Of a stretch of DNA of 64,000 nucleotides, positions 1 to 3,104 are shown one piece after another. Source of the stretch: Sphingobacteriia bacterium (GTDB lineage: Bacteria > Bacteroidota > Bacteroidia > Chitinophagales > Chitinophagaceae). The notes beneath the pieces are model-generated. The model was not told where the DNA came from. It did no database searches and worked only from the letters and a program-made list of their open reading frames with translations. The translations under genes and the position numbers were made by a program. Every line of letters begins with the position of its first letter. The first letter of the stretch is position 1. The stretch is from positions 1 to 64,000 of the forward strand of contig CANGCK010000014.1 in assembly GCA_947452295.1 (NCBI GenBank), written 5' to 3'.

Positions 1-328
1 GAACCTATATTCATTGGGGCAATTGAACCTATATTCATTGGGGCAATTGAACCTATATTCATTGGGGTGTTTGAACCTTTACCCATTGGGGCGATTGAAT
101 CATTACTCATTGGGGTGTTTGAACCAATACTCATTGGGGTGTTTGAACCAATATTCATTGGGGCGATTGAACCTATATTCATTGGGGGGTTTGAACCTAT
201 ATTCATTGGGGCGGTTGAACCTATATTCATTGGGGTGGTTGAACCTATATTCATTGGGGTGTTTGAACCTTTATTCAAATGGGCGATTGAACCTTTATTC
301 AAATGGGCAGGGGTGTCGCATGAATGAA
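1..328. repeat. 24-bp tandem repeat array inside the RAYT gene
   Basis: About 13.7 units of 24 bp run from the left edge. The GGGG/TGGG block recurs at 16, 40, 64, 88, 112, 136, 160, 184, 208, 232, 256, then 280 and 304. Most units read TTGAACCTATATTCATTGGG plus four or five variable bases. The last units drift (ATTCAAATGGGC; then GGGCAGGGGTGTCGCATGAA) but keep the 24-bp phase. Because 24 is a multiple of three, one minus-strand frame stays open and encodes an eight-residue repeat. Two plus-strand frames also stay open for the same trivial reason. Units abut with no spacers. Confidence 0.95.
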
Positions 329-644
329 GGGCAGGGGTAAACCCTGCCCCTACGGTGAAAAAATCATCCAACAAAATAATACCATGAACATGATTGGGCA
401 TAATCTGAAATACATTTAATTGAAAATTTAAAAATCGTTCCGTTAATTTTATCCATTCATTAAATGCCACTTCACCACATTCATTCAATATCATTTTGCC
501 ATTTTCAATATTCCCAAACCTACAAATCCTATCATGACAGCATATTGTAATAAAATATAAACCTGCTTGTGAATAATCGAAACCTTTCAAACGAATGGAT
601 TGTCTATGGTGTAAGTGGGGTCTGTATGGATATTTACCTTTCAT
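1..644 (-). CDS. REP-associated tyrosine transposase (RAYT, Y1/HUH family), 3' end off the window
   Basis: An open frame on the minus strand starts at ATG 644 and reaches base 1 without a stop, giving at least 214 residues. The first 95 residues match the Y1 transposase fold of RAYTs: a GFDYSQAGLYFIT segment at about 21-33, CRFGNIENGKMILNECGEVA at 41-60, and the HUH motif MPNHVHGII at about 82-90 with metal-binding His85 and His87. The catalytic tyrosine should lie beyond the edge. After residue 97 the protein leaves the family: VGAGFTPAL is encoded by a GTAG-headed palindrome, and about 13 copies of an octapeptide like APMNIGSN follow. RAYTs are single-copy relatives of IS200/IS605 transposases thought to handle REP palindromes. 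The repeats are in frame, so the protein may still be made. Whether the missing 3' part is intact cannot be seen. Confidence 0.85.
   Translation of the reverse strand, partial: MKGKYPYRPHLHHRQSIRLKGFDYSQAGLYFITICCHDRICRFGNIENGKMILNECGEVAFNEWIKLTERFLNFQLNVFQIMPNHVHGIILLDDFFTVGAGFTPALHSCDTPAHLNKGSIAHLNKGSNTPMNIGSTTPMNIGSTAPMNIGSNPPMNIGSIAPMNIGSNTPMSIGSNTPMSNDSIAPMGKGSNTPMNIGSIAPMNIGSIAPMNIG
329..353 (-). repeat. REP-like palindrome with GTAG head, inside the RAYT gene
   Basis: On the minus strand GTAG (353-350) is followed at once by GGGCAGGG (349-342), loop TTTAC, and CCCTGCCC (336-329), a perfect 8-bp stem. A GTAG/GGAG tetranucleotide 5' of an imperfect palindrome is the known layout of REP sequences recognised by RAYTs. 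It is translated in frame as VGAGFTPAL. A half copy, GGGCAGGGGT, recurs exactly 24 bp to the left at 305-314. Confidence 0.65.
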
Positions 645-702
645 TTCGATTGTACATTTATGAGTATTATTATTTTTATTTTTCTTACTTGTTCCAAATA
701 AA

Positions 703-722
703 AAATCCACTTACGTGGATTT
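703..722. repeat. Short inverted repeat upstream of RAYT gene
   Basis: AAATCCAC (703-710), loop TTAC, GTGGATTT (715-722) form a perfect 8-bp stem. On the minus strand it is followed by a T-rich run, so it could stop transcription entering the transposase gene from the right. It could also be an end structure of the element. Role unknown. Confidence 0.45.
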
Positions 723-939
723 CATTTTATTGGACAAATTTTAGCCGCTTACAATACTAGCACAACGGTTTTATTACATTAAATTAAACACATTTAATAT
801 AATGCAAAAAATAATTTTATGTATATTATTTCGTCCCCCCCATTCCTCATCCTCCAATAATTGCATCTATAGTGCAAAGATATTTCCGCAATTGTCTTTA
901 TTAATCCAATATCGAAAACCTTTGGCGCAATACCTTTTG

Positions 940-947
940 TATTTTTG
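940..947 (+). promoter_or_regulatory. Candidate -7 box for the copper ATPase gene
   Basis: TATTTTTG fits the Bacteroidota -7 consensus TAnnTTTG and ends 30 bp before the ATG at 978. A TTTG at 921-924 could serve as the -33 element, but its 15-bp spacer is shorter than the usual 17-23. Confidence 0.4.
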
Positions 948-977
948 TACCGGGTTCTTTTACTTAAAACGTAACTT

Positions 978-3104
978 ATGGAAAAAGTAAACTGGAATGT
1001 GTCGGGAATGAGTTGTACCAATTGTGCCCTCACCATCAACAAATATTTAGAAAGCAAAGGTTTAGAAGAAGTAAAAGTAAATTTTATAGGGGGTGATGTA
1101 AGTTTTAACCTACCCGATGAAATGAGTAAAATTGATATTCAGAAAGGAATCGACGGTTTAGGCTATCAGGTTACCAATGGAGTGGTATCTTCTACACAAA
1201 AAAGGAAACTATTTAAATCGCATTTGCAACGCTTTGTATTTTCTGCCATTTTCACTTTTCCGCTAATGCTGCACATGATACCCGGCTTTCACTTTCATTG
1301 GCTCATGAATCCTTATCTGCAAATTGGGTTAACACTTCCTGTTTTTATAGTGGGCATGGATTATTTTGGTAGAAGTGCATTTCACAGTATTGCAAAAGGA
1401 ATTCCTAATATGAACGTGCTCATTACCATTGGCGCTATAGCTTCCTTTGTGTATAGTCTTTATGGTACATTTACCAATCAAGCTGCCGAATACATGTTCT
1501 ACGAAACCACGGCTTCTATTCTTACTTTGGTTTTTTTAGGCAATTGGCTAGAAGATAAATCAGTTGAAACTACACAAAGTGCACTTCAAAAATTAGCCCA
1601 TTCGCAAAAAACAATGGCCAACATGATTGCCTACGACGATCAACACCAGGAACATATTTTTCCGGTTGAGAGCACCTCCTTAAAAATGGGCGATTTGATT
1701 TTAATGAATTCGGGTGACGCTGTCCCCATGGATTGTAAAATATTATCGGGCAATGTTGCTGTAGATGAATCGATTATTACCGGTGAATTTATTCCGGTTG
1801 ATAAAAAAATAAAAGACCAATTAATTGGTGGGAGTATACTTGTTAGCGGCTCCGCAAAAGCCTATGTAACCGCTGTTGGTGATGATTCGATATTGGGTAA
1901 TATTTTACAATTAGTAAAAAATGCTCAAACCGAAAAGCCACCCGTGCAACAATTGGCCGACAAAATAAGTGCTGTTTTCGTGCCGGTTGTAGTAGGACTT
2001 TCGGCCCTTACTTTTATCCTTAACTACACTTTAGCAGATCAAACATTTACCCATAGCTTAATGCGGTCTATTGCCGTATTAGTTATTTCTTGCCCCTGTG
2101 CAATGGGCTTGGCTACACCTGCAGCAATTGCTGTTGGACTGGGAAGAGCCGCCAGAAATGGAATATTATTTAAAAATACTAAAAGCCTTGAACTTTTTAA
2201 AAGTATCGAACAAGTAGTGTTCGACAAAACAGGTACGCTCACCACCGGTCAATTTATTATTGAACGTTTTGCTTTAACCCAAGAGGGAGAATTACTTGGG
2301 GTTGATGCGTTTAAGCGCATCGCATATTCTTTAGAAAAATATTCTAACCATCCATTGGCTAAAACAATAGCAAAAGAATGGAAAGTAAAAGATGAAATGC
2401 GTTTTTCACAAGTAGAAGAAACAAAAGGCTTTGGCATGAAGGGTACCGACAAAGAAGGCAATGCCTTTATTGCAGGATCTTATAAAACTGTTGATTCACT
2501 CACCCAAGATACTACCCATAATATTTACATCGTTAAAAACAATACACTGTTAGGTTGGGTCGACTTAACCGATCAAGTTCGTCCAGAAGCAGTTGCAGTA
2601 ATTCAATATTTAAAAAACAGAAATATTCGAACCATTTTATTAAGTGGTGATAAAAAAGAACGTTGCCTACTTGTTGCCAACCAATTAGGAATTGACGATG
2701 TTTTTGCAGAAGAACTTCCAGCACAAAAACTAGAACGCATTGAAGCGCTCAATAATATTTGTCCCACAGCAATGATTGGTGATGGCATTAATGACGCTCC
2801 TGCACTTGCAAAAGCTACTGTTGGTATTTCATTAAGTGAGGCTTCTCAAATTGCCGTACAAAGTGCCGAAGTAGTTTTAATGAACCACGGACTAAAAAAT
2901 TTACCTACCGCATTGGGCTTAGGCAAACATACCTATTTAACCATTCAACAAAATTTATTTTGGGCATTAATTTACAATGTAATTGCCATACCATTTGCAG
3001 CAATGGGCTTTTTAAGTCCTGCTTTTAGCGCATTGGCTATGGGATTAAGTGATGTGGTTTTAGCCATTAATTCCGTTAGATTGAACTTTAAAAAAGTAGT
3101 ATAA
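978..3104 (+). CDS. copA: Heavy-metal (Cu+-type) translocating P1B-type ATPase
   Basis: Inner-membrane ATPase of 708 residues expected to export monovalent copper. It has one N-terminal HMA domain with GMSCTNC (residues 10-16), an actuator TGE at 268-270, the membrane CPC motif at 372-374, the phosphorylation motif DKTGT with Asp416, the nucleotide-domain HP dipeptide at 458-459, and GDGINDAP at 601-608. CPC plus the YN near the penultimate membrane helix indicate Cu/Ag specificity. In the last helix the usual M-x-x-S-S is M-G-L-S-D, so the second serine is replaced. That makes the exact metal slightly less certain. The ATG at 978 directly precedes the HMA domain. The recQ gene begins six bases after its stop. 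Confidence 0.9.
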   Translation: MEKVNWNVSGMSCTNCALTINKYLESKGLEEVKVNFIGGDVSFNLPDEMSKIDIQKGIDGLGYQVTNGVVSSTQKRKLFKSHLQRFVFSAIFTFPLMLHMIPGFHFHWLMNPYLQIGLTLPVFIVGMDYFGRSAFHSIAKGIPNMNVLITIGAIASFVYSLYGTFTNQAAEYMFYETTASILTLVFLGNWLEDKSVETTQSALQKLAHSQKTMANMIAYDDQHQEHIFPVESTSLKMGDLILMNSGDAVPMDCKILSGNVAVDESIITGEFIPVDKKIKDQLIGGSILVSGSAKAYVTAVGDDSILGNILQLVKNAQTEKPPVQQLADKISAVFVPVVVGLSALTFILNYTLADQTFTHSLMRSIAVLVISCPCAMGLATPAAIAVGLGRAARNGILFKNTKSLELFKSIEQVVFDKTGTLTTGQFIIERFALTQEGELLGVDAFKRIAYSLEKYSNHPLAKTIAKEWKVKDEMRFSQVEETKGFGMKGTDKEGNAFIAGSYKTVDSLTQDTTHNIYIVKNNTLLGWVDLTDQVRPEAVAVIQYLKNRNIRTILLSGDKKERCLLVANQLGIDDVFAEELPAQKLERIEALNNICPTAMIGDGINDAPALAKATVGISLSEASQIAVQSAEVVLMNHGLKNLPTALGLGKHTYLTIQQNLFWALIYNVIAIPFAAMGFLSPAFSALAMGLSDVVLAINSVRLNFKKVV

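Follow-up and report, generated by a model that had tools for sequence, protein, structure and literature searches.

A probably intact subclass 2.4 RAYT gene with in-frame REP hairpins and tandem arrays between its HUH and tyrosine halves in a Sphingobacteriia bacterium

Introduction

REP sequences lying in frame within a transposase gene have been described for one group of RAYT (TnpA_REP) proteins. According to the parts of Quentin et al. (2018, PMC6006769) drawn on here, subclass 2.4, within which RAYT group 4 of Bertels et al. falls, is the only one with REPs in frame inside tnpA_REP, generally between the HuH motif and the Y, and its insertion is highly variable, with short repeats detected by MEME. 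The same parts restrict insertions between β3 and αC to subclasses 2.3 and 2.4, present the inserted region as a peripheral extension in the authors' model, and report canonical and double-foot REPs for subclass 2.4, with Bacteroidetes among its phyla. The E. coli TnpA_REP (PDB 4ER8), with the GTAG-recognition residues W94, Q95, E100, H101 and R104, is assigned there to subclass 2.2, outside the subclasses with β3–αC insertions.

Palindromes in frame within coding genes also appear in the consulted part of Di Nocera et al. (2013, PMC3733652), as REPs inside other genes and Rickettsia palindromic elements; those lie in host genes, many of them of replication and repair, whereas here the transposase gene itself is concerned. 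The titles and abstract openings of the literature retrieved held nothing on private internal REPs or on interspecies exchange of such genes.

The locus described here lies at the left end of a stretch of 64,000 nucleotides (the window) of contig CANGCK010000014.1 (C14), from assembly GCA_947452295.1 of a Sphingobacteriia bacterium (G000; 3.23 Mb in 109 contigs); C14 has its left end at window base 1. An earlier note, made from the window alone, had read a RAYT gene here, with an HUH half (MPNHVHGII) followed by at least 13 octapeptide units in the same minus-strand frame, and had held an insert at this position to be unusual. In-frame REPs and short repeats in this RAYT are the phenomenon published for subclass 2.4, as the consulted parts of PMC6006769 describe it. 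REPs not found elsewhere in the genome, a difference between arrays and a low divergence between species are new additions that deserve follow-up.

Results

The N-terminal half and its surroundings

A minus-strand open frame runs from 710 (GTG) or 644 (ATG) to the window edge. It holds the N-terminal half of the RAYT (402–644) and then the HUH motif MPNHVHG (minus strand, window 401–381), so the HUH half was correctly recognized by the earlier note. The motif's M, P and N and its two H residues are invariant columns in an alignment of 41 relatives. The N-half gave a weak partial match to NCBIfam NF047646 (E 1.5e-4; 21.7 bits, the cut-off being 80), and a Pfam search of the window RAYT fragment gave no match. 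In a congener (G428), the half is found with 97% identity over 95 amino acids. Beyond the motif, at 329–353 on the minus strand, a GTAG foot and a hairpin with an 8-bp stem (REP1) are read in frame as VGAGFTPA; the folding energy as DNA is −10.2 kcal/mol (z −4.35).

The upstream flank contains two hairpins, one of which was folded. The inverted repeat at 703–722 lies upstream of the ATG, and the A+T-rich hairpin at 776–804 (z −2.68) stands close to where a stretch of high similarity between two species begins. One place similar to the palindrome at 703–722 was seen elsewhere in G000, at C56:15037–15069. On the right flank of the insertion, a plus-strand gene (978–3104) encodes a putative heavy-metal (Cu-type) P-ATPase, so named from its motifs.

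Searches of Rfam with window 1–1100 gave no match at the gathering score, a scan of viral contigs gave one stretch only, which is not a relative, and a plasmid search gave three records, each below 60% identity. A multi-copy IS200/IS605 insertion sequence was rejected as an identity for the locus, since no second copy of window 1–1200 was found in G000. The single PF01797 match in this genome is a different gene, on contig C25.

The 24-bp array

At 1–308, on the minus strand and in the RAYT frame, a 24-bp tandem array encodes an octapeptide like APMNIGSI. TRF reported a period of 24 with 12.5 copies, 88% matches and a score of 392. The array ends because C14 ends at window base 1, and it does run off the edge as had been described. 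The earlier count of at least 13 units holds if the cut unit is included; strictly, 12 units are complete and 20 bases of a further one remain. When the whole assembly was searched with a 19-base core of the unit, at most two mismatches being allowed, all nine hits fell inside this array. Compared with their own consensus, the units carry 4 synonymous and 25 nonsynonymous codons, about 7 synonymous ones being expected without constraint, and no constraint on the peptide is apparent from the substitutions.

The idea that the array itself forms a hairpin structure was considered and dropped, since its folding was not clearly better than that of shuffles: two units folded as shuffled DNA does (z −0.15), a two-unit piece differing from the window by one base gave z −0.40, and six units gave z −1.19, with 25 of 200 shuffles equally good. 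Frame switching by copy number was also a poor fit, since 24 bp is a multiple of three.

The unit consensus agrees with the left arm of another REP of the gene (REP3, described below) at 13 of 16 bases, with 2 of 3000 single-base shuffles equally good; this is one short match, picked post hoc on inspection, and single units agree at 8 to 13 of 16 bases. The array peptide NIGSTA lines up in the common frame with NIGTTA, at the congener's array exit, and with DIGATA, in REP3.

The C-terminal half on a second contig

With the C-terminal piece of a relative (L045) as the query, one strong match was obtained in G000, on contig C71 (bases 46–279, E 2.8e-32); two other matches had E values above 0.07. 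The beginning of C71 contains, in order, an 18-bp array (PQNADV), REP3 (IGATARVAPT), GAYKS, LWQRNYYEHVIR, YIINNP, the stop codon and the tsaE gene (Pfam TsaE, E 6.5e-33). REP3 lies inside the open frame and folds with z −5.55. The C-half matches NF047646 below the 80-bit cut-off, and its W, Q, E, H and R are spaced as are the residues with which the E. coli protein recognizes GTAG. A profile match to the E. coli protein (E 3.2e-8) is confined to the C-terminal part, where it covers 42 profile positions.

In neither G000 nor G428 does one contig span the RAYT. In the congener, contig C121 starts inside the 24-bp array and continues in frame via REP2, the second array and REP3 to the stop, followed by tsaE. 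Its N-half is on contig C79 (record CANHJH010000079), which terminates in the array exit sequence also seen on C121. The last array units differ between these two contigs, which suggests more than one version of the array in the congener population, or an assembly effect. The second array encodes PQNADV in G000 and PQNGDL/V in the congener, and the degenerate REP2 was seen in the congener only, with none on C14 or C71.

The most likely gene order is the N-half with HUH, REP1, the 24-bp array, REP2 (congener only), the 18-bp array, REP3, the C-half, the stop and tsaE. A C-terminus with its Tyr motif, the absence of which would by the earlier note have meant a decayed gene, is present at the start of C71, and the two contigs place the array in frame between the HUH motif and the catalytic Tyr region, as proposed. 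Taken together, the locus is very probably an intact RAYT/TnpA_REP gene of subclass 2.4 (Bertels group 4), split over C14 and C71 by its repetitive middle. The unseen gap in G000 is probably open in frame, and the product would probably be active.

Compared with subclass 2.4, the gene has the NH[IFV]H motif (NHVH in MPNHVHG), the WQ motif (in LWQRNYYEHVIR) and the YIxNNP motif (YIINNP on C71), as well as in-frame REP1 and REP3, and its arrays and REPs stand after HUH and before GAYKS, the names β3 and αC for this region being taken from the consulted parts of PMC6006769. What distinguishes it is that one gene holds two arrays, apart from each other, along with REP-like cassettes that number two in G000 and three in the congener; that REP1 and REP3 were each found once in the genome; and that an array difference and a low interspecies divergence have been measured.

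The insertion site

The N-half was matched at E 1e-5 in 3 of 147 genomes of the genus (its own included; G294 and G428, equal in contig numbers and lengths, are presumably the same MAG), and the Cu-ATPase at E 1e-120 in 141 of 147. The site was compared at the best 30 Cu-ATPase loci, two of which are RAYT carriers and 28 without RAYT. Among these best 30, a divergently oriented tsaE match was present at 27 of the 28 RAYT-less congener loci, separated from the Cu-ATPase match by about 80 to 320 bp; locus L129 was the only one without a tsaE hit. Since tsaE adjoins the Cu-ATPase at these RAYT-less loci, C14 and C71 flank a former single neighbourhood.

Next to the Cu-ATPase, both RAYT-carrying species retain a remnant of the original promoter and start of tsaE. 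In the window it is found at 859–885 on the minus strand, where it aligns with the tsaE 5' region of the empty-site congener locus L106, over about 66 columns in G000. About 30 of the remnant bases are present a second time at the intact tsaE, with a score of 30 that none of 1000 shuffles reached; in G428 this applies to 24 bases. The two copies are located at window 859–885 and at about 333–362 of L094. We read this as an insertion that would predate the split of the two species and that came with a short duplication. A duplication of about 30 bp would be unexpected for an IS200-like insertion.

Selection and divergence between two species

Between the two species, dN and dS are 0.026 and 0.080 for the N-half (96 codons) and 0.018 and 0.174 for the C-half (68 codons). 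For both halves together pN/pS is 0.20 (Fisher p 6e-4), which shows that they are under purifying selection. It had been considered that the array might mark a decayed gene, a pseudogene free of selection with no RAYT C-terminus behind it. The contig does end inside the array, with the gap unseen, and the repeat peptide has no clear constraint, but the presence of the C-half with its motifs, the congener frame open from the array to the stop and the pN/pS of the halves make decay very improbable.

The gene also differs little between the species. The RAYT regions compared were window 1–810 and L094 1–288 against L135 and L136. When part of the array was aligned with the N-half frame, dS was 0.154, and ten neighbouring genes, some of them partial, gave dS values of 1.02 to 2.30, which are near saturation and rough. 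By rounded counts, both tsaE (p 7e-11) and the Cu-ATPase (p 1e-25) have more synonymous differences than RAYT. Identity per 60-column block was about 0.65–0.88 through the first part of the Cu-ATPase gene and 0.73 at window 958–839; it was 0.88 at 838–779 and 0.93–1.0 from 778 to 359; since it stays at 0.93–1.0 from 778, the upstream noncoding stretch is part of the similar block. The catalytic halves are about 96% identical between the two species, and the adjoining array units differ in sequence. The simplest reading would be that the RAYT unit was recently exchanged between species or converted; strong constraint on the DNA or RNA could also keep divergence this low.

Survey of related RAYT frames

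RAYT matches at E 1e-8 were present in 48 of 294 family genomes, its own included. The survey was assembled from the family genome matches, 8 loci from a scan of genome contigs and one congener locus (L100). The family search gave 72 matches besides the window gene, 7 of which were left out (G014:C2:2142426, G030:C459, G247:C74, G286:C34:385849, G269:C39, G051:C20 and G030:C89). An input of 77 loci yielded 62 distinct frames that contain HUH and WQ, and 17 loci gave none of their own: six were duplicates already counted (L057, L058, L059, L060, L069, L070), four had no WQ motif in frame (L027, L041, L048, L073) and seven had no frame fitting the HUH pattern (L053, L063, L064, L076, L078, L086, L087). 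The two genes under study, from G000 and the congener, were kept out. A Tyr-type motif was found in 59 of the 62 frames (absent in L017, L052 and L088). Not every frame is an intact gene: one at L026 has a stop before its beginning, and the frame of L052 continues into another gene. Since NH[IFV]H occurs in 46 and YIxNNP in 44 of the 62, the set is not pure subclass 2.4.

The counts that follow are descriptive, the 62 frames being related, found by similarity and not independent. Strong arrays (TRF at least 50) were found in the HUH–W segment of 22 frames, in two N-cores and in no C-core, with a mean of 0.35 and a maximum of 2 in codon-shuffled segments; 40 frames had no strong array. All 22 periods are multiples of three. 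At TRF of at least 30, the counts were 29, 6 and 2 (shuffled mean 3.6), and 28 of the 29 periods are multiples of three. Hairpins, defined by a loop of 3–7 and a stem of at least 7 perfect pairs that include 4 or more G-C pairs, were present in the HUH–W segment of 43 frames, in one N-core and in two C-cores (shuffled mean 1.2, maximum 3). The HUH–W segment is shown to be an insertion hot spot in the relatives. With these counts, and with such inserts described in 2018 in the parts of PMC6006769 consulted, the view that an insert at this position is unusual has to be given up.

The recurrence of strong arrays at the same place would suit a functional linker, in which array length tunes the HUH–Tyr distance or the dimer geometry, or the repeats bind a partner. 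Such a role is improbable: repeat peptides differ from gene to gene by eye, the HUH-to-W distance ranges from 41 to 173 residues (57 frames), the window array has the unconstrained look noted above, and the region is peripheral in the model of Quentin et al., as far as the consulted parts of that paper show.

Some loci had features of their own. L061 (G247:C165) carries a 15/30-bp array (GQPQI) N-terminal of HUH, a second place for arrays that is outside the HUH–W count, and its genome has many REP sites elsewhere too. In L038 (G097:C14), two hairpin-coding stretches lie between the YKS region and WQ, not beside HUH. Three consecutive RAYT matches stand at L070 (G014:C2:2299900–2302700), one with an internal stop and two at copies of one REP. 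The array of one relative gave weak hits, far below cut-off, to Pfam Decapeptide and NCBIfam DotG/IcmE; these identities were discarded as composition look-alikes.

REP copies elsewhere in the genomes

REP1 and REP3 occur in one copy each in G000 at up to three mismatches, so that a genomic population of many copies of either was not found at that level. A strict REP pattern (GTAGGGGC to GCCCC) was then applied to 50 RAYT-bearing genomes and gave 135 hits, against 36 hits in 21 of the 50 genomes for the reversed control; merging of overlaps left 115 sites. As a single strict pattern it misses diverged REPs elsewhere. Sites were taken as being at RAYT, inside or beside the gene, when no more than 700 bp from the RAYT match, centre to centre. 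With this pattern, 16 genomes had a site at RAYT, ten of them with none elsewhere and four with one elsewhere, single sites elsewhere being at the level of the reversed-pattern control. G177 (39 sites) and G247 (18 sites) have many REPs elsewhere in the genome, and in 13 further genomes the sites lie solely away from RAYT matches. The REP of G014 was also searched, more loosely at 3 mismatches, in three genomes from its genus. Of the five distinct sites found, four are at RAYT matches and the fifth, with 3 mismatches, lies away from them; G184 had none.

The ten genomes in which this pattern found REPs solely at RAYT, the kept GTAG-reading residues, the GTRG or CYAC foot on 51 of 64 linker hairpins and a RAYT with leader far more similar between two species than its neighbours would be consistent with internal REPs that serve as the protein's own substrate and are kept because it binds or cuts them, at the level of the gene or of its mRNA, in autoregulation or in gene movement. 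This remains doubtful, since the evidence comes from one strict pattern with hits in the reversed control, G177 and G247 hold REPs genome-wide, 13 genomes have sites only away from RAYT, and 19 of the 62 surveyed frames have no hairpin by the criterion used. A wider form of the idea, in which subclass 2.4 RAYTs often hold the sole REP copies in frame, the protein recognizes them for regulation or interspecies exchange and the arrays are by-products of hairpin processing, is unlikely.

Discussion

The findings are best explained by an intact subclass 2.4 gene whose linker is probably neutral or mildly tolerated. The loop between β3 and αC would tolerate insertions, and REP hairpins would have entered this permissive loop in frame. 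Pieces of REP and neighbouring sequence may then have been duplicated in tandem, most likely by hairpin-helped replication slippage, the 24-bp unit being probably derived from a REP arm. Selection would hold the frame and both catalytic halves and hardly constrain the repeat peptide. REP accumulation and a flexible linker, both offered by the earlier note as readings of the array, are reasonable.

Genes of this kind break in short-read assemblies and then resemble fragments, which calls for caution when such fragments are met. The locus is an example of a bacterial enzyme gene that has taken up hairpins and long repeats in its middle with the frame and the catalytic motifs kept, and a comparison of two species finds the linker altered and the enzyme nearly the same. 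Should the internal REPs indeed be the enzyme's own sole targets, such genes would offer a compact test of the RAYT–REP association.
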